A stretch of DNA of 38,841 nt from Alphaproteobacteria bacterium. Its GTDB lineage: Bacteria > Pseudomonadota > Alphaproteobacteria > M2410. The DNA lies in assembly GCA_030614785.1 (NCBI GenBank), contig JAUWTJ010000034.1:1-38841 (forward strand). The letters are read 5' to 3'. Numbering within the stretch: position 1 is the stretch's first letter; the number at the start of each line of letters is the position of its first letter. The notes beneath the pieces are model-generated. The model made no database searches. It worked only from the letters and a program-made list of their open reading frames with translations, and was not told the DNA's origin. Positions 23,496-32,797 of the stretch are shown here, one piece after another. Position numbers and translations under genes: made by a program.

Positions 23496-25112
23496 TTACT
23501 TGCTAAAGATATCGCCGGATCCGTCTTCGCCGCTTCCCGGTGCGGCAGAGAATTTGTATATCAGCGAATAATCAAGGCAGGCGTAGTAGCCGTCCTCGGG
23601 GTTTACATCCGGGCGGTCAAACAAGATGTGCGCAACAACGTCTTCCTGGATTTTATAGAAAAACGCTTTGAAGGCGCCCCACATTTCGTCTTTGCCATTC
23701 TCGCCTGTTGCTTCAGCAGCGTTGTCGTCGAGCCCGGAAAGGAAGGCATCATAGGCGGCCCACAGGCCCGGCTCCTTGCGGCGGGATTTTCTGATCTTTG
23801 ACCGCGAGACCTTCTTTCCCGTGAAGGAAGGTTCGGATGCAACGCTTCTGGAATTCACGTCAACGTATCCAACCATGTGCGCGGCGCCCCTGTAGAACGA
23901 TCCGAAGGGCTGGCCACGACAGATATTGCCGGTTGGATAAGGCGAGCGGTTGGCCAGAGAATATTCAAGGCTTGCGATAACGCCGCTGTTATCTTCAAAC
24001 AGGTTGTGGTCGATATAGACCCTTGGTGCTTCGACCAGTTGAATGGAGTCGAAGTTGGCGCCGCGGAACACATTCTCGCTCACTCTGGCGATACCATTTA
24101 CAAAGATCGCGTGAACCTCGGAAGGACCGAATGTATTCTGGGAAATTTGCATTTCAGTGTAGGTCGACATGACGCCGATGCCGCTGGCATCAATCTGATT
24201 TCCCGCAATGACGATCTTTACATTTGGCTTCTGCGCCATAAAAATAGAACCGTCTGCAGTAATTGCATTGGTACTAATCCGGGCAATTGTATTGGAGATG
24301 ATGTGATACTGCCCGCCTTCGGCAGACTTTTGCGTTGGCACAAGTGTAATGCCCGTGCGGGCGTGGGCGATGGTGTTTTGCTCGATGATAGCCTGGCTGC
24401 CATGAACAAGTATCGCTGTGGCCTGCTCAAACCCGGTAGACTGAGGGCCATCATAGGCTCGCGACTGGCCTTCGATGAAATTGTGTTTCAGAACGATGCC
24501 GCCGCTTCTGCTTTCAATGAGAGGCGCGAGCAGGCGGCTGTTTGCTGTGATGTGGAAGCCGACGACGGCAGCATATTTATCCGGATCGACATTGACGGTA
24601 ATGCAAGGGCCGGCTGTCGTTGAGCACTCCATGGTCACAGGGAACTGATTTGGCAGCTGCGCCAACGCCTTGTCGATCTCGCCCACAAGAAGCGGACGAC
24701 GGATCTGCGGCATGGCTGCTGGCATGATTTTGACGGCCTTGTGAATACGAAGGCTTGAGATTTTGCAGGCCTTTTTATCCGAAACAAGGATCGTATCGCC
24801 ATCCTTTGCCTTGCCGTCCGGCCCGACCATGGACTGAAGCGTTTTGCAATTGACGGTGTAGGTGTCATTGCGCCCACCGGTTCCAAACTCGGGTTGGCTG
24901 GCGTCGTTTTCATAGGACATCTTGCCCTTGCGCGGCACCCAGGTTGAAAAGTCGTCCTGTGCGAAAAACAAGTCGGTCGATCGGTGAGATAGATAGTCGG
25001 CCTTCGCGGCAGACGTCGAGATGACGCCAAGCGCCATAGTCGCGACAACGGCTTTGGTGGCCTTCATCAGCCAGGCTGAAAGTGTCCCCTTGGTCATACT
25101 TTTCCGGGCCAT
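23496..25112 (-). CDS. Secreted right-handed beta-helix protein
   Basis: The 538-residue product has a signal peptide (cleavage near SAAKADY). From about 175 to 380 it shows imperfect repeats of about 22 residues with the parallel beta-helix (PbH1/NosD-like) rhythm, for example GIVLKHNFIEGQS, AIIEQNTIAHARTGI, HIISNTIARISTNAI, IVIAGNQIDASGIGV, MQISQNTFGPSEVHA, ARVSENVFRGANFDS and VYIDHNLFEDNSGV. Such helices bind or cleave polysaccharides, or act as scaffolds. No catalytic set of a lyase or polygalacturonase is evident. The C-terminal 150 residues include a very basic patch (SRSKIRKSRRKEPG) and a region unlike anything I know. It starts 64 bases after the Sel1-like gene with GAGGAT before the ATG, so the two are likely one operon. 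Confidence 0.8.
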   Translation of the reverse strand: MARKSMTKGTLSAWLMKATKAVVATMALGVISTSAAKADYLSHRSTDLFFAQDDFSTWVPRKGKMSYENDASQPEFGTGGRNDTYTVNCKTLQSMVGPDGKAKDGDTILVSDKKACKISSLRIHKAVKIMPAAMPQIRRPLLVGEIDKALAQLPNQFPVTMECSTTAGPCITVNVDPDKYAAVVGFHITANSRLLAPLIESRSGGIVLKHNFIEGQSRAYDGPQSTGFEQATAILVHGSQAIIEQNTIAHARTGITLVPTQKSAEGGQYHIISNTIARISTNAITADGSIFMAQKPNVKIVIAGNQIDASGIGVMSTYTEMQISQNTFGPSEVHAIFVNGIARVSENVFRGANFDSIQLVEAPRVYIDHNLFEDNSGVIASLEYSLANRSPYPTGNICRGQPFGSFYRGAAHMVGYVDVNSRSVASEPSFTGKKVSRSKIRKSRRKEPGLWAAYDAFLSGLDDNAAEATGENGKDEMWGAFKAFFYKIQEDVVAHILFDRPDVNPEDGYYACLDYSLIYKFSAAPGSGEDGSGDIFSK

Positions 25113-25176
25113 TGTATCCTCTTTCAGTTACGCCTAAACCTCAGCGTCGCTCGCATCGTTGATTTTCCCCGAACGA

Positions 25177-27318
25177 TCATGAGCAGCTGGAAAGTTTGGC
25201 GTCGAGTTCCTTCGTCGTGTTTTTCAGAATCTCACGAACCTGAGCGATCGACTTTCGATTGACGCTACGTTCGCTTTGACCCATGTGCTCGTCATATTTC
25301 CCGATTTCTTTCCACAGGCTTTTGACTTTTTCTGACAGGCCCTGTTGAGAAACCTTGAGGTCCTTCAAGGCGTCGCATGTGCCTTGCGTCGTGTTGCCAA
25401 CACTGGTGGAGAGACCCGCGATTTCAGCTTCGTAGTGCTCGAGAGCGACTTCAGCCTCGTAGTCAATACAGCCAACGACGCCGCGTTCGGCCATAAGTTT
25501 ATTGATGCTACCTGAGTCAATCATCGAAATTTTCTTCGCCGCGCCTGGATGACCTCTGTCCTGGGCCTCGGAGAAGAAGTATTTGGAAATGTCAGGGTCG
25601 ATCACACGCCTTGGCGGTGTCGGATTTTCCTCGGAAGAATAAGGATAGGATCCCGGAGCGTGACGATCATAGAAGCCTTCCATATACATCAAGCCGAGAT
25701 TGTAAAGCGCCGTCGGATGGCCCTGGTCAGCTGCTTTCTGGAACCATGCGTGGGCTGCTGCGGTGTTGCAGTTCAGGCCAATGCCGCGGGCATACATGAT
25801 GCCAAGCTGGATTTGTGATTCTGCATCGCGAACATCCTGGGCGGCGAGGCAAATCAGTTCAACGCGCTGATCTGTGGTCAGATACCCGGTGTCATCGACA
25901 TTAAGCTCACCGCGTTGGAAATCCCGAATGGCTCTACGGGTTTCTTGCCCCGGCTTGCCATCGACGTATGTGGTGTAATAGCCCAGAGCCTTGAGTGCCA
26001 TTTGCAGGCGGTTCCACGGGATGTCATGGACACGATCTCTGCTGCCACTCGATGACATGCGTGCGACGCGGTCGTCTTTCATTGAACATGTCATGGTCAG
26101 CGCTTGAAGCTGGCGGGAGGCATCGACCGCAGAACGGCTGTAGGGCTCACGCGCCATAGCGTATTCAAAGTAGGTCTTGGCGTCCTTGATATTGCCGGCT
26201 GCCAGATGGCCATTGCCAATATCGAATGCAGAGCGGGAGCTGTGGTGGGTATCAACACCCGGCGGCAGGTCAATACTGACGTTGCCGACGCCTTGTCCGC
26301 GCCTGCTGGACTGGAAATCGCTGCCCCAATTGACCTGTTGCGGGCCGTCGTTTTGTCCCAGCCTGCGCGGTGCCGGCGTGGCTTGTGTGAACGTCGAACC
26401 GGACGCCGTCACGTTGCCCCGGGACGGCACAATTGCAGAGCCGAAGTTGCTGCTGCGATTGGCGGCGACGGCCATGGAAAAGGCCACGATGCGCTGCGCC
26501 GCAAGTTCGGCCAGCAGTTCCTGGCTGTACATAATTTCGCTTTGGTAAGCCTCGGCCTGGACTTCCGCATCCAGATAGCCACGCATCTCGGCTGCCATCA
26601 TCCAGACATAGGCGTCATAATTACTCCTGACGACAAAGTCGGTATCGACGCCCTTGTAAAATTTGGCCATCAGGTAGTGTGCGCGCGCATCACCCTTGCG
26701 GTATACGTCAACAAACAGTTTTTCCGCTGTCCAGAACGAAGGACCAACAATCTTGTTGCGCCATGACGACTTCTTCAAACTTTGCATCCGGTCCCAGGCA
26801 TAGTCCGCGTAGGCCTTGTCAGTTCCGGTCAGTGGTTGGGAATTCTGGTCAATGGTGGTGACAAGCTCGTGAAATGTCAAATGAGCGGCGGCGAGAGAGT
26901 ACCAGAAATAGGCCTCTATTCTGTTTCTTTGAGCCGACTCAAATAGCTCAGCCTTGAAATGATTGCCCATGCGCTTGGGATGTTCATAACTTTTCAGACC
27001 ATCAACTTTTCTGGCCAGGTTCTTACTGTAAATATCTCCCAGCATCACCTGGGCATCAATCGGGCCGTCGTATTCGCCGGCAGGGCCCTTGATTTGTGCG
27101 AGTGAGGGGTAAATGCTGACTTCCGGTCGTCCGGCATGGGCAGCGGGCATCAGCGCATTGCCGATGATTGTTCCGAGTGTTAGTCGATTTCCGCTTTCGC
27201 CTGAATTGCCAGCGGGCTCGATTAGCCCGATCGGCAATGCCAAAACGCTCAGGAACGCGGCGGCAGATACCGTCCATGCCGCCAGCTTCGTCGCCTTGTT
27301 TTTCAACAGATCCTTCAT
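25177..27318 (-). CDS. Secreted Sel1-repeat and peptidoglycan-binding protein
   Basis: The 713-residue product begins with a long signal or anchor (hydrophobic 12-32, with AHAG near 62 as a possible cleavage site). Residues 90-290 are helical and repeat-like (DAQVMLGDIYSKNL, ARAHYLMAKFYKG). Residues 290-365 form a Ser/Gly-rich linker. Residues 435-490 form a PG_binding_1-like domain (LQMALKALGYY with DGKPGQETRRAIRDFQRG). Residues 498-555 are clear Sel1 repeats (AESQIQLGIMYARGIG, AWFQKAADQGHPTALYNLGLMYMEGF). A helical, coiled-coil-like tail ends the protein. The layout suggests a periplasmic scaffold that holds peptidoglycan and recruits partners. It is followed by the beta-helix gene. The start has a G-rich stretch (GGGGG) 4 bases upstream. 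Confidence 0.82.
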   Translation of the reverse strand: MKDLLKNKATKLAAWTVSAAAFLSVLALPIGLIEPAGNSGESGNRLTLGTIIGNALMPAAHAGRPEVSIYPSLAQIKGPAGEYDGPIDAQVMLGDIYSKNLARKVDGLKSYEHPKRMGNHFKAELFESAQRNRIEAYFWYSLAAAHLTFHELVTTIDQNSQPLTGTDKAYADYAWDRMQSLKKSSWRNKIVGPSFWTAEKLFVDVYRKGDARAHYLMAKFYKGVDTDFVVRSNYDAYVWMMAAEMRGYLDAEVQAEAYQSEIMYSQELLAELAAQRIVAFSMAVAANRSSNFGSAIVPSRGNVTASGSTFTQATPAPRRLGQNDGPQQVNWGSDFQSSRRGQGVGNVSIDLPPGVDTHHSSRSAFDIGNGHLAAGNIKDAKTYFEYAMAREPYSRSAVDASRQLQALTMTCSMKDDRVARMSSSGSRDRVHDIPWNRLQMALKALGYYTTYVDGKPGQETRRAIRDFQRGELNVDDTGYLTTDQRVELICLAAQDVRDAESQIQLGIMYARGIGLNCNTAAAHAWFQKAADQGHPTALYNLGLMYMEGFYDRHAPGSYPYSSEENPTPPRRVIDPDISKYFFSEAQDRGHPGAAKKISMIDSGSINKLMAERGVVGCIDYEAEVALEHYEAEIAGLSTSVGNTTQGTCDALKDLKVSQQGLSEKVKSLWKEIGKYDEHMGQSERSVNRKSIAQVREILKNTTKELDAKLSSCS

Positions 27319-27466
27319 CTAGCCCCCGCGCCTTGTGGCCTTGATGTGCCCAAATAAATTCTGTGAAGATCCCCAAATCCGTAAAGTAATTACCGAAAAA
27401 TTCCCCCGTGAAACTTCCCGGAATTCCTCGTACGCAGTGACCCGCAGAATCCCCAACCTCCAGATG

Positions 27467-27482
27467 TTAACAGAAGTTTACC
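27467..27482 (-). promoter_or_regulatory. CtrA-like half-site pair upstream of the Sel1-like gene
   Basis: Read on the minus strand, the site is GTAA, seven bases, then TTAAC. The CtrA consensus is TTAA-N7-TTAAC, so it differs at one base. It lies about 150 bases upstream of the start at 27318. Such short sites arise by chance, so this is only a candidate. Confidence 0.25.
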
Positions 27483-27724
27483 ATAATGCGAATAGAATGT
27501 GGCAGGGAATTTGGGCAAAATTGCGTTTAATTTCGCAGATTTTCACCGCAGCTCGCCGTCTTCGAAACAAGTTGCGGCGGGCTGGTCCCCGTTGGTCCAA
27601 AACCACCCTCTGATGAGGGGCCTATTCGAGTATATTCAACTTACAGTAGAAGACCTGTCCATTCAGGGGCAGACCATCCAACACCTTCAAACTAACAATG
27701 ACTTGCAAAATTCAGAGGTTCAAG

Positions 27725-27741
27725 GGTTAACGTTATTAACC
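27725..27741. promoter_or_regulatory. 17-bp palindrome GGTTAA-N5-TTAACC
   Basis: The arms GGTTAA (27725-27730) and TTAACC (27736-27741) are perfect reverse complements around CGTTA. The shifted pair GTTAT/ATAAC (27732-27746) overlaps it. This could be an operator for a dimeric regulator controlling the small plus-strand gene, about 100 bases downstream, or the distant minus-strand operon. Confidence 0.4.
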
Positions 27742-27839
27742 ATAACGGGAAGTTGGACCCTGTTCCCTTAATGTGACATGTTGTGGGAACAGCGTACGGG
27801 GGCGTGCGTTGCAACAGGTAGATGTTGCGGGGTGATAAG

Positions 27840-28085
27840 GTGTTTGTTTCAAGGAAAGAGGGTGCTCGTGCGCCCGGGTTTGTGATTTCGCCAAGAGTGG
27901 CGGGTATTATAACTGTGATTGGCGTGATGGCTGTGCCGAACGTTCCTGCCGCCTATCTGACGCCAGCGGCGGTTTTCCTGGGCGCCCTGACGGTTTTCCG
28001 GATGGAAAGCAGAAAATGCCGCCAGGCTCGAAACGATTTGCGAGACCAGAACGCGGCCTGGAAACCGTCGGAGCCAAAGGATTGA
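27840..28085 (+). CDS. Small putative membrane protein
   Basis: A frame of 81 codons from the GTG at 27840 encodes a basic start (VFVSRKEGARAP), two hydrophobic stretches (VAGIITVIGVMAV and PAAYLTPAAVFLGALTVF) joined by a short turn, and a charged tail (RKCRQARNDLRDQNA). This suggests a two-helix inner membrane hairpin. GGGGTG lies 5 bases before the GTG. An in-frame ATG at 27822 is the alternative start. I do not recognise a family. The gene runs convergent to motA with a 22-base gap. It could be a chance frame, although the amphipathic layout and ribosome site argue for a gene. Confidence 0.45.
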   Translation: MFVSRKEGARAPGFVISPRVAGIITVIGVMAVPNVPAAYLTPAAVFLGALTVFRMESRKCRQARNDLRDQNAAWKPSEPKD

Positions 28086-28107
28086 AAAAGTCGCTTGCGG
28101 ATATGGC

Positions 28108-28980
28108 CTAACCAACCTCGGGCGGGATTTCCTCGAGCGCTGTTTCCAGTTCAAAGAATGATGGCTGGCCCGTGGACGGTATGGTGCCGCGGCCAATTTC
28201 GACCGAGATTTGCGGTGCGTTGCCGTGCAAGTGAGAAACCAGCACGCCCTTGATGATCAGATAAAAATGATGATCCTCGTCAATCACCTGTTTCAGGCGC
28301 CCGGCAAAGGGACCAAAGAACCCATAGGCGAGGAACACACCAAGGAACGTTCCGACAAGCGCCCCACCGATCATTTTACCGAGGACTTCAGGGGGTTCAC
28401 TGATTGACCCCATTGTCTTCACAACACCAAGCACAGCGGCAACAATCCCCAGTGCGGGCAATGCGTCTGCTGTGCCTTGAAGAGCGTGTTGTGGATCCAT
28501 TGCCTCATGGTGATGCTTTTCGAGCTGGGCGTCCATGGCATCTTCAACCTGATGCGGATCTTCCAGATTGAGCGTCATCATTCGCAGCGTGTCGCAAATG
28601 AAGTCCGTTGCAAAATGGTCTTTCATAATTTTTGGATAGCGCTGGAAGATATTGCTTTCAGAGGGGGTTTCGATGTGGGCCTCAAGGGCGATTACACCCT
28701 TTGTCTTCATCAGCCGCGTTAGCAGAAAGAGCAGACAAAGAAGGTCCCTGTAGTCGCCGCTCTTCCACTTGGGACCGCCGAAAATCTTGCCAAAGCCGCC
28801 AAGGGTTCCCTTGACGACTGTCATGGAATTGCCGACCAGAAAGGCGCCAATTGCGGCACCAAAAATCATCATCAATTCGAAAGGCAGAGCCTTGAGGATC
28901 ACCGACATGTGGCCCCCGGCGAGGATGTATCCTCCGAAAACCATCACGAAGGTGATGACGATACCGATGATCTGAAACAT
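28108..28980 (-). CDS. motA: Flagellar motor stator protein MotA
   Basis: The 290-residue inner membrane protein has four transmembrane helices: two near the start (IIGIVITFVMVFGGYILAGG and ELMMIFGAAIGAFLVG) and two later (ALGIVAAVLGVVKTMG and LGVFLAYGFFGPFAGRL). A long cytoplasmic loop lies between the pairs. The conserved prolines of MotA are present before ALGIVAAVLGVV and in FFGPFAGR. MotA with MotB forms the proton-driven stator that turns the flagellum. No motB follows, as in several alphaproteobacteria where motA stands alone. An AGGG motif precedes the ATG. A CtrA-like site lies about 140 bases upstream. Confidence 0.96.
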   Translation of the reverse strand: MFQIIGIVITFVMVFGGYILAGGHMSVILKALPFELMMIFGAAIGAFLVGNSMTVVKGTLGGFGKIFGGPKWKSGDYRDLLCLLFLLTRLMKTKGVIALEAHIETPSESNIFQRYPKIMKDHFATDFICDTLRMMTLNLEDPHQVEDAMDAQLEKHHHEAMDPQHALQGTADALPALGIVAAVLGVVKTMGSISEPPEVLGKMIGGALVGTFLGVFLAYGFFGPFAGRLKQVIDEDHHFYLIIKGVLVSHLHGNAPQISVEIGRGTIPSTGQPSFFELETALEEIPPEVG

Positions 28981-29621: not shown

Positions 29622-29978
29622 ATGAAATTTTCTATTTTGAGCGCTTGTGCAGCGGTCTTCATGTTGAGTTTAGGCGCCCAGGCGGCGACCGATTGCAGGG
29701 CTCCCCTTGAGCCCGATATCCCGTTACGCTTCGAGACCGAAGAACAGCTGATGGCCGTTTATGCGGAAGTCAAAGCATTCATAACCGAGAAATCACCGGA
29801 ATATCTTGAATGTCTTAATGTCATGCGTTCACAGGTCGATTCGGCGGCTGACGATGCAGATGTTCAAATAGCGGACATCGATCAGCGCAATAATGACAAT
29901 GTTGATGCGCAATTGGCTGTCAAGAATCGCTTTGATGCGGCTCACAAGATCTGGAAAAAAGAGCATCCCGAGGAATAG
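29622..29978 (+). CDS. Small secreted protein of unknown function
   Basis: The 118-residue product has a typical signal peptide (MKFSILSACAAVFMLSLGAQA, cleaved before ATDCRAP). The mature part is about 97 residues, mostly helical and acidic. It holds two cysteines, in ATDCRAP and EYLECLNVM, that may form a disulfide, and it ends in a charged helix (NRFDAAHKIWKKEHPEE). No family is recognised. AGGAGAACGAG precedes the ATG, and a rho-independent terminator follows 25 bases after the stop, so it is a complete single-gene unit. Confidence 0.8.
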   Translation: MKFSILSACAAVFMLSLGAQAATDCRAPLEPDIPLRFETEEQLMAVYAEVKAFITEKSPEYLECLNVMRSQVDSAADDADVQIADIDQRNNDNVDAQLAVKNRFDAAHKIWKKEHPEE

Positions 29979-30096: not shown

Positions 30097-31461
30097 ATGA
30101 CAGATCATTCAGATGATGATGCCGAAGAGGTCTCGTTTCCGACAGGCGAAACCGGTTCGGATCCGCTGGAGACAACAGATCTGAATTTTGTTCAGGTGCC
30201 AGGCGGCGGATTTGGACAGTCCTTGTCACTTGACCAGGGTTCAATCCATTCGTCCACGACGCCGGAAGAGAGAAAAAGAGGCGTTGTTGTTCTCTTCCTT
30301 TCGTTGACCATTGTCAGCATGGGCCTCTCAAGCATCTTTAATATCCTTCCGCCGCTCGCCCGAGTGCTTGGATATGCTGAATGGCAGACATCAGCAATTT
30401 TCTCGGTTTCTGCCTTTTTCTGGGTTTTCGCCAGTCCCTATTGGGGGATGAAGAGCGATATATGGGGGCGCAAAACTGCAATCCTGATTGGCACAGGCGG
30501 CTATACGGTTTCGACAATTCTGTTTGCGTTTGCCGCTCACGCTGCTGAAGCATCAATTGTTTCACTGTCGATGGGGTTCTTCCTCATGATAACGGCCCGC
30601 TCGATTTTTGGTCTGTTCGGGTCCAGCACCAACCCTGCGGCTAATGCCTATATCGCGGATAGAACGGCGCCAAAAGAGCGGGCCGCCGGACTTGGGCTGC
30701 TGGCTGCGGCTTTTGGTATTGGTCAGATCCTGGGCCCGGCCATGGCCGGTGCCTTATCTGTATTCGGACTATTGGTGCCGATCTATTTTATTGCCGCGAT
30801 GGGCGGGATTTCAGGACTTCTGGTCTGGCGATATTTACCCGAACGAACCAAGCCTGTTCAAAGGGAAGGTCGTGTTAAACTTCCTCTTTTGGACAGCCGT
30901 GTGCTTCCATTTGTGATTTTTGGCGTCGCGCTGAGTCTGGTTCAAACCATCATTGGGCAGACTATCACCTATTACTTTATGGACAAGCTGCACATTCCGC
31001 CCGAAGTTGCCCCGCAATATACATTTCCGGCGTTTACGCTCATGGCTTTGGGTGCCTTGTTCGCGCAGTTTGTTCTTATCCGAAATTTTGGACTGAAATC
31101 CAGAACCTTGATGCGGTGGGGTATCGGGTTGGCGATACTGACCCTTATTGCCTTTGTTATTGCGCCTACGTTCGGTGCTTTAATGTTCGCAATGCTCTTG
31201 CAAGGTCTTGCCTTTGGTATGGCAAGACCCGGGTTTTCTGCTGCAGCATCGCTGGCGGTGGAAGCGCATGAACAAGGGGCTGTGGCCGGGCTTCTTGGGG
31301 GCACTGGTGGTACCGGCGCCATCCTGAGCCCTTTTATTGTCTATTTTGTCTATCAGGGCATATCACCGGAGGCGACCTACCTGATGGGCGCCGTGCTTCT
31401 TGCTGTCCTCTTTGCGACGCTTTTCTGGGTGCCGGCCTTCAAGGTGCGACGGGATCACTAG
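30097..31461 (+). CDS. MFS transporter with acidic N-terminal extension
   Basis: The 454-residue product has 12 predicted membrane helices and the MFS motif A between helices 2 and 3 (GMKSDIWGRKTAILIG). The motif C-like GFGIGQILGPAMAGAL-type segment in helix 5 (AFGIGQILGPAMAGAL) suggests a drug/proton antiporter of the TetA/DHA1 class. The first 60 residues are hydrophilic and acidic, unusual for the class, and may be a cytoplasmic regulatory tail. The substrate is unknown. The last 23 bases overlap the end of the convergent lytic transglycosylase gene. Only a weak ribosome site (AGGAAG) precedes the ATG. Confidence 0.9.
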   Translation: MTDHSDDDAEEVSFPTGETGSDPLETTDLNFVQVPGGGFGQSLSLDQGSIHSSTTPEERKRGVVVLFLSLTIVSMGLSSIFNILPPLARVLGYAEWQTSAIFSVSAFFWVFASPYWGMKSDIWGRKTAILIGTGGYTVSTILFAFAAHAAEASIVSLSMGFFLMITARSIFGLFGSSTNPAANAYIADRTAPKERAAGLGLLAAAFGIGQILGPAMAGALSVFGLLVPIYFIAAMGGISGLLVWRYLPERTKPVQREGRVKLPLLDSRVLPFVIFGVALSLVQTIIGQTITYYFMDKLHIPPEVAPQYTFPAFTLMALGALFAQFVLIRNFGLKSRTLMRWGIGLAILTLIAFVIAPTFGALMFAMLLQGLAFGMARPGFSAAASLAVEAHEQGAVAGLLGGTGGTGAILSPFIVYFVYQGISPEATYLMGAVLLAVLFATLFWVPAFKVRRDH

Positions 31462-32797
31462 CGGGTGCCGTCTCATTGCCCTTGATTTTTTCAAGCAATT
31501 CTGTGGTCGCGAAACCGTCGGCGATCATGTGGTTCTGTTTTTGAAAGGTGCGGATCGCATTGCGTGTCTTGCCGCCAAGAATTCCGTCAATGCCACCTGT
31601 CGGAATGCCTCGCGCGGCGAGGCGCCGCTGCAACTCCTTGCGCTGGCTTTTTGACAGAGGTGTCATGTCGCGCGGCCAGTCCCGTATCACGCCGTTGCCG
31701 CCGGCGACCTGGTCAGCGATGAGGCCAATGGCAAGGGCATAGGCCGTTGAATTATTATACCGGAGGATGGCGCGGAAATTCTCGAAAATGAGGAAGGCTG
31801 GACCCGTGTGTCCGGCTGGCACGATAATGGCGGCTGAGCGATCCACATCCGGCACGGGGTCTTCATTTATGAATGTTATGCCCGCCGCGCGCCACTCTTT
31901 CATATCGCGCAGGTTTCGCCGGTCCGCCAGGGCATAGTCGAAAGTCTCGGGCAGCTTCACCTCGCGGCCCCAGTCCTGGCCGGGCTGCCATCCGGATTGC
32001 GTCAGATAGTTTGATATGGAGGCAAAGGCGTCGCCCTGATTGTCCCAGATGTCGCGCTTGCCGTCACCGTCATGATCAATCGCATAGGCGAGGTATGTGG
32101 TCGGGATGAACTGGCCGTGCCCCATGGCACCGGCCCAGGACCCGGTCAAACCCGCAGCGGACTTGTCACCGGCTTCAATGATCTCAAGCGCCGCCATTAA
32201 TTGTGTGCGACCGAATTTGGCGCGGCGACCGTGGAAAGCAAGTGTCGCAAGCGCCTCGATGACACTGTAGTCGCCGGTTATCGCGCCGAAGCTTGTTTCA
32301 AGACCCCAGATTGCGACGATGAAGCGTGACTGAACCTCATATTTTTCCTGTAGCTCTGCAAAAAGATCCTTGTGAGTTTCGAGAGCCTCCTTGCCCTTTT
32401 TGATACGATAGGGTGACGCAGCACCATCAAGGTACGACCAGATCGGTTTGGAGAATTCAGGTTGAAACGCGTCGGCCTTCAGGACCTTCGGGTTCAATTT
32501 CACATCCGCGAAGGCTTCGGTCAGGGTCTTTTCGGACAGCCCCGAGGCGAGCGCCTGCTTCTTGAAGTCTTCAATCCACAGGGCAAACGCAGCTTCATCT
32601 TTCGTGGATGGTCCAGAGAATGGTTTGGGTTGTGGATCAGGCAGGGGCTCGGTGGCCCCGACGGGGGTAGTCGCCAGAAGTGCGAGACCCAGGGCTGCAG
32701 CAGCAATCCGGCCTGAAAATGTCGCGGCCCCCTTAGAAAAACAGCGGGCGAAGCTCCTGCGCTGCTCATACTCACACCAAACCCGAACCATATACAT
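31439..32797 (-). CDS. Lytic murein transglycosylase (MltB family) with peptidoglycan-binding domain
   Basis: The 452-residue product has a signal region (hydrophobic 30-47, ending VGATEP), a family 103 (MltB-like) catalytic domain at about 65-345, and a C-terminal PG_binding_1 domain at about 375-435 ([29 protein letters not shown], in two blocks). The catalytic acid is Glu167 in WGLETSFG; the [17 protein letters not shown] block is diagnostic. The enzyme cleaves the MurNAc-GlcNAc bond, forming 1,6-anhydro-MurNAc ends, and acts in the periplasm in wall turnover. The start codon at 32797 has AAGGGG close by; a second ATG two codons on is equally possible. It converges on the MFS gene. Confidence 0.93.

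Follow-up and report, generated by a model that had tools for sequence, protein, structure and literature searches.

In this study, we found that two adjacent genes of an alphaproteobacterial contig, encoding a Sel1/TPR solenoid protein and a right-handed beta-helix protein, are conserved as an operon-like unit in several families of Alphaproteobacteria. The pair lies in a stretch of 38,841 nucleotides (hereafter the window; positions 1 to 38,841 of the forward strand of contig JAUWTJ010000034.1, GenBank assembly GCA_030614785.1), as two long minus-strand open reading frames (ORFs) with a 64-bp spacer between them: 25177-27318, encoding 713 amino acids (aa; the scaffold), and 23496-25112, encoding 538 aa (the helix protein). 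The explanation that we tentatively prefer, at somewhat less than even chances, is that the scaffold is a tethered periplasmic protein holding a probably non-catalytic, polymer-binding beta-helix, and that the two work like AlgK and AlgG without belonging to those families. We found no description of a Sel1/beta-helix pair in the literature, mostly non-subscription, on Sel1, beta-helix and peptidoglycan (PG)-binding proteins, Caulobacter, and AlgK/AlgG. The accessible part of a Caulobacter copper paper mentions that fewer than one quarter of genomes encode, near cciO or cciT, a protein with a Sel1 repeat, and does not name a beta-helix there. In the following, G- and L-numbers are working labels of genomes and loci, and f-numbers those of genome families. 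The parts of the pair are:

25177..27318, minus strand: scaffold gene, encoding a Sel1/TPR solenoid protein with PG_binding_1 (713 aa), first of the pair
26449..27102, minus strand: scaffold N-terminal helical-repeat region, residues ~73-290 (low-confidence AlphaFold2 helices; aligns with the N-terminal region of relatives)
26095..26250, minus strand: scaffold TPR-like helices, residues ~357-408 (AlphaFold2 helices; TPR matches under cut-off)
25876..26010, minus strand: scaffold PG_binding_1 domain, residues 437-481 (Pfam 3.8e-7, over cut-off)
25717..25824, minus strand: scaffold Sel1 repeat, residues 499-534 (Pfam PF08238, 3.7e-9)
25113..25176, minus strand: spacer between the scaffold and helix genes, 64 bp
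23496..25112, minus strand: helix gene, encoding a putatively exported right-handed beta-helix protein (538 aa), second of the pair
24999..25112, minus strand: likely signal peptide of the helix protein, residues ~1-38 (judged by eye)
24906..24950, minus strand: short post-signal stretch of the helix protein, residues 55-69, a candidate docking peptide (motif by eye)
23913..24869, minus strand: right-handed parallel beta-helix domain, residues ~82-400 (AlphaFold2, VIA-align)
27319..27839, minus strand: upstream region of the pair, without significant palindromes

In genome family f64, the scaffold gene is present in 75 of 149 genomes, and in all 75 the helix gene lies directly 3' on the same strand. 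Across the class, a full-length scaffold profile (E <= 1e-30) matched 18 places in 15 of 385 genomes, and at 15 of the 18 places a helix gene follows directly 3' on the same strand (14 within one locus, that of G003 inferred). The adjacency in relatives, on which the sequence-only reading had let its idea of a pair depend, is thereby borne out, as are the two large same-strand ORFs 64 bases apart that it had described. Of the three places without a helix gene, the one in G150 is a caspase fusion, and those in G125 and G228 are homologues of half length. The latter two (L166 4492-5397 and L167 4928-5887, respectively) correspond to the N-terminal scaffold half only, with no helix match within 10 kb. 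In the window's own family, gene order is the same in G001, G002 and G003; the genes are side by side in G001 and G002, and in G003 they sit at the ends of two contigs (L040, L041), where the pairing is inferred from order. Within this family, identity is 48-62% for the scaffold (long matches) and 27-30% for the helix protein.

All 86 joined pairs, from all lineages, have the same strand and order, and the spacing from the first possible helix start falls between -10 and +60 nt in 69 of them, 28 of which overlap the scaffold stop by 4 nt. Spacing exceeds 60 nt in three pairs (64, 101 and 151 nt), and in the other 14 the helix gene, counted from its first possible start, would overlap the scaffold gene by more than 60 nt, the true start being ambiguous. 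The helix proteins diverge more than the scaffolds, with median identities of 0.29 versus 0.56 in f64 (2775 comparisons) and 0.19 versus 0.28 in the other lineages (55 comparisons).

An early search with the window scaffold, matching 41 of 59 genomes, most of them via the Sel1 part alone, was superseded by the full-length profile. A profile of the TPR-PGB-Sel1 core (PGB, PG-binding) matched 11 of the 385 genomes, and a beta-helix ORF was found directly 3' of the scaffold in G006, G139, G372, G094, G125 and, twice, in G228. In G150, no beta-helix lies 3' of the core match, and a caspase domain is fused instead; at L083 (4908-7379), a Peptidase_C14 caspase fused to PG_binding_1 and Sel1 is related to the scaffold core and unpaired. 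Six of the seven helix proteins in the former six genomes exceed the Pfam cut-off for Beta_helix or NosD, and that of L082 has no Pfam match but fits the helix family profile that it helped to build; none of three further proteins of the window's own family exceeds a Pfam cut-off. A wider profile, likewise superseded by the full-length one, matched 113 of the 385 genomes at E <= 1e-16 with at least 16 places kept (range from about 2-5 to at least 118); it brought in G295 and three genomes of f64, in all of which the scaffold has a helix ORF next to it. Among small families, the scaffold was matched in both genomes of f123 and in three of five of f92. In a phylum-wide sample of 349 genomes, the 10 with a match are all Alphaproteobacteria, class being shown for few of the non-matching genomes. 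A scan of named genomes with the helix protein as query found nothing, and an f64 scaffold protein searched against plasmids returned 32 records, none of which covers 80% of the query.

PF13229 has few matches in these genomes, 25 in 11 genomes (0-6 each), a lower bound for beta-helix genes since the pair's own helix was missed in 5 of the 11 (G001, G002, G003, G006 and G094). Even with several times more beta-helix genes, repeated adjacency by chance would be implausible.

The scaffold of the window contains a Sel1 match of 37.2 bits against a PF08238 cut-off of 30.7 and is thus a Sel1-like repeat protein. The sequence-only reading had described Sel1 repeats plus a PG-binding domain; the PG-binding domain and Sel1 stand, and the plural does not, Pfam giving one Sel1 stretch. 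A TPR match at 1.6e-5 was obtained for the scaffold of the relative L039. The best fold matches of the scaffold model are mostly Sel1 proteins, and comparison of the scaffold profile with solved structures returned many Sel1 chains, with MotX and AlgK further down the list (2.2e-7 and 5.8e-6 for AlgK). Both window proteins begin with a hydrophobic stretch which, by eye, is a putative export signal. Neither exceeds the cut-off of any NCBIfam family, so that membership of characterised families with unrelated roles, which would have told against the sequence-only reading, is not indicated by these profiles. A toxin role was considered on account of an Ntox28 match and dropped, as the match (E 0.03, 14.8 bits) is below the 25-bit Pfam cut-off.

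The likely tether of the scaffold differs by lineage. PG_binding_1 exceeds the cut-off in the scaffolds of the window, L039, L043, L080, L081, L082, L084, L085 and L086, and in none of the nine f64 scaffolds scanned. Conversely, a lipobox after the hydrophobic stretch is found in 68 of 75 f64 scaffolds versus none of 11 others by an intermediate rule, which was set after viewing the sequences that a strict rule had missed and which in controls matched 5 of 86 helix proteins by accident and none of 75 inner stretches; by a loose pattern, the counts were 68 of 75 and 1 of 11. Since most other lineages carry PG_binding_1 and most f64 scaffolds a lipobox, the family appears, judged from these motifs, to have mostly kept a tether while changing its kind. 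The residue at +2 is Asp in 47 of the 68 f64 lipoboxes. In E. coli, Asp at this position keeps lipoproteins in the inner membrane, a rule that may not hold in f64.

The helix protein is a right-handed parallel beta-helix (pectin-lyase-like) protein, as had been read from the sequence, by three lines of evidence: Pfam (Beta_helix 1.2e-6, 28.7 bits against a cut-off of 25.9; NosD PF05048 2.2e-6, 27.7 bits against 23.6), an AlphaFold2 model with this fold at residues 82-400 (pLDDT mostly 70-90 with dips; ends of low confidence, overall mean 61.6), and VIA-align. The VIA-align neighbours, many of them helices that handle polysaccharides, at Z 24-26 over ~280 residues and with 8-17% identity in the rows shown, include polygalacturonases, AlgE epimerases, PL6 lyases, NosD (Z 25), RbmB, phage tailspikes and the adhesin PfbA; they indicate fold, not function, and the lack of an AlgG row in that list is no evidence. 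The helix profile matched AlgG among solved structures at 2e-5, and in a Foldseek search with the model the only three matches at E <= 0.001 were PL6-type lyases (3e-4 to 9.5e-4).

These neighbours bring up an enzymatic alternative, in which the helix protein would act on polysaccharides as a lyase, hydrolase or epimerase, tethered in the periplasm by the scaffold; we consider this unlikely on the conserved residues. The columns kept in at least 85% of the 75 f64 helix proteins are G, C, A, L, V, I, N, F, P and, as the sole charged one, an R belonging to a motif before the helix. Within the helix core, no D, E, H, K or R column reaches 85% among the f64 proteins or 75% among all 86, and a separate alignment of 25 helix proteins has no charged core column at 60% identity. 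PL6 lyases have a conserved catalytic Lys/Arg pair; no core K/R reaches these levels, and one K/R column is kept in 15 of 25, the repeat alignment being uncertain. In all, three charged columns are partly kept in the 25 (Asp in 14, Asp/Glu in 15, Lys/Arg in 15), which leaves some room for a catalytic role, and a shifted catalytic residue could escape alignments of such fast-evolving repeats. DPHD, given as the catalytic signature of AlgG in the accessible part of PMC4444821, occurs in none of the 86 proteins. That no acid or base is widely conserved in the helix core argues against a shared enzyme activity. What the f64 helix proteins do keep is six cysteines (in 70-75 of 75) and a post-signal motif, RPxFGxL (in 67-75 of 75). 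The window protein has a different motif at a similar position, S-(T/D)-(W/Y)-x-P-R by eye, common to L039, L041 and L042, with WxPR in L084.

The surroundings of the pair are variable. When mechanical ORFs of at least 90 aa within 5 kb of the pair were clustered (antisense shadows included, 25 largest clusters, several loci truncated by contig ends), no neighbour family was common to more than 6 of 25 loci of different lineages. In these loci, the pair thus has no fixed gene context, nor is it repeatedly accompanied by an exopolysaccharide cluster. Within the window, matches to polysaccharide synthases, glycosyltransferases or polysaccharide-export proteins were found in none of the 17 ORFs scanned for domains, pair included. 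Exopolysaccharide genes by comparable loci, which the sequence-only reading had pointed to, were thus not seen, and of its envelope or polymer-secretion module the paired module kept together survives, whereas polymer secretion has no support from context.

We therefore return to the scaffold-and-helix assembly introduced above. The two genes would make a self-contained operon for envelope assembly, whose periplasmic location is suggested by the tight pairing, the putative export signals and the tethered scaffold. The scaffold would be a periplasmic TPR/Sel1 solenoid, tethered by its PG-binding domain in the window and by a lipid anchor in another lineage. The helix protein would be exported, and in f64 is probably held by disulphides. 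Sel1/TPR solenoids bind partner proteins, and the solenoid is predicted to contact the helix protein, perhaps via the conserved post-signal peptide, and so fix its place. The groove of right-handed beta-helices commonly binds glycans; here it may bind a long polymer, either a glycan strand or a polysaccharide in transit, most likely without chemistry. The pairing, the domain make-up, the lineage-specific anchors and the lack of a widely conserved charged core residue are observed features on which this explanation draws; export by signals judged by eye, the disulphides, mutual binding, a periplasmic helix protein and a polymer ligand are what it would add to them. In a more specific form, possible but with somewhat poorer prospects, the solenoid, with its anchor swapped between PG-binding and lipid, would display a fast-diverging, disulphide-linked, non-enzymatic helix that docks via the post-signal peptide and serves as a polymer clamp or recognition surface, in a widespread and undescribed module.

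If correct, this explanation would add a conserved two-part envelope device to the Alphaproteobacteria, present in 75 of the 149 genomes of one family, and would assign a function to genes so far named by fold alone. It also predicts contact between the two proteins, interchangeable tethers and the absence of catalysis.

Among known systems, AlgK and AlgG would be the closest working analogue. They are described as two proteins of one periplasmic alginate export complex (PMC4444821, in part), AlgK being lipid-anchored (PMC9384988, in part). As in AlgK-AlgG(-AlgX), a Sel1-like scaffold and a right-handed beta-helix would share the periplasm, and most f64 scaffolds apparently have a lipid anchor like that of AlgK. 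Unlike AlgK-AlgG, however, the pair has neither DPHD nor recurrent polymer genes, and a PG-binding domain replaces the lipobox in most other lineages. The scaffold scores 11.9 bits against a cut-off of 700 for the AlgK family NF038194, and the helix protein does not belong with the AlgG mannuronan C5-epimerases, there being no DPHD and no alginate cluster among the 17 window ORFs or in the 25 loci. NosD, of the NosDFY copper delivery system, shares the right-handed beta-helix and the PF05048 profile; in contrast, the partner here is a Sel1 protein, and no ABC transporter (NosF/NosY) is found among the 17 window ORFs. PL6 alginate lyases and other pectin-lyase-type enzymes are alike in fold and unlike in identity and in conserved core charges, as described above. 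ExoR, RgsF and other Sel1-like proteins of the alphaproteobacterial envelope and polar growth, as covered in the accessible part of PMC7327166, have Sel1-like repeats, whereas the scaffold of the pair is a full-length family with a PG-binding domain or lipobox and a beta-helix neighbour.

Several observations weigh against a tethered scaffold holding a polymer-binding helix. Polysaccharide genes do not recur near the pair in the 25 loci, and no scaffold match was found in 74 of the 149 f64 genomes. At nine homologue loci of lower score no helix was matched either, so that related scaffolds manage without one: L060-L063 (two Marinicauda, one Glycocaulis and one metagenome genome), G150, the half-length homologues of G125 and G228, and two f146 loci. 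The scaffold-profile E values of these nine are ~1e-34 to 1e-50, and those of the f64 ORFs compared are ~7e-107 or better; L084 is paired despite a low score (2.6e-35). Because the helix profiles were built from partners picked by eye and favour the same kind, the control is provided by these nine loci, of which L221 and L222 extend only 1.5 kb to each side; the helix of L159 was seen only in a longer stretch of the same locus, L178. As to the tether, the L117 scaffold has neither a PG_binding_1 match nor a lipobox, 7 of 75 f64 scaffolds lack a lipobox by the intermediate rule, and the strict rule finds it in only 17 of 75 (0 of 11 others, control 0 of 86). The AlphaFold2 model of the scaffold is poor (mean pLDDT 55, pTM 0.34). 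AlgK ranks 22nd and 23rd of 26 structures, below many Sel1 proteins, and the AlgG match covers only ~100 helix-repeat residues, so that the analogy may reflect mere shared folds. The three partly kept charged columns of the helix core likewise count on this side.

A different role, which we regard as rather improbable, would be that of an accessory to cell-wall growth or division, in which the scaffold guides PG synthesis and the helix protein binds glycan strands. It is suggested by the PG_binding_1 domain of the scaffolds and by the TPR/Sel1 protein RgsF, listed among the polar growth proteins of Sinorhizobium (PMC7327166, in part). A lytic transglycosylase (SLT_2) gene with PG_binding_1 also lies ~4 kb from the pair (31439-32797, minus strand), and relatives of it are kept near the pair in G001 and G003. 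However, the nine f64 scaffolds scanned have no PG-binding domain, the absence of a scaffold match from about half of the f64 genomes shows that the pair is not core, and each neighbour family is confined to 6 of the 25 loci at most. Least probable of these alternatives is a sensor, with the scaffold as an ExoR-like regulator of ExoS-ChvI and the helix protein as its ligand-binding co-receptor: ExoR, periplasmic and built of Sel1-like repeats, binds ExoS and in this way regulates ExoS-ChvI (PMC7327166, in part), and a response regulator and a kinase lie beside the pair in L118, with a related response regulator ORF near it in L177 and L081. This regulator family is, however, near the pair in just 3 of 25 loci, and against the NCBIfam ExoR cut-off of 450 bits the score is a weak 15.8.

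The upstream region had been described as a 521-base, long palindromic leader. Its length is 521 bases only if a doubtful 87-aa ORF (27822-28085, plus strand) is a gene, and otherwise 789 bases up to motA; this ORF contains a hydrophobic stretch. The palindromes were rejected, inverted repeats being at chance level: none of 12 nt or more were found in 27319-27840, lower settings gave two imperfect 11-nt inverted pairs in 27319-28107, and exact repeats of 6, 7 and 8 nt in 27319-27839 were not above mononucleotide shuffles (P 0.12, 0.27 and 0.26). A promoter scan gave 2 sites versus 3.3 expected. Folding of the leader as single-stranded RNA is modestly better than that of shuffles (z -2.2), of which 3 in 100 were equally good.

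The pair is flanked in the window by motA and by a convergent phosphatidylcholine-synthase-like gene (under the NCBIfam cut-off). The former (28108-28980, minus strand), upstream of the pair, is MotA1 at 381.5 bits against a cut-off of 303.8, and no motB was found among the window ORFs scanned; a flagellar link was dropped because G001 and G003 have no motA at that position. More than 14 kb separate the pair from an MMPL transporter and an autotransporter domain. A 118-aa ORF (29622-29978, plus strand) has a signal-like start and no Pfam match, and at the corresponding position G001 and G003 have ORFs of equal length that BLAST does not link to it at 1e-5. A protein of ~750 aa near the pair in G001 and G003 (L039 4592-6853, L041 3332-5623) has no counterpart among the window ORFs compared. 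On the other side, the phosphatidylcholine-synthase-like gene lies beyond the helix gene in G001, G002 and G003 alike.

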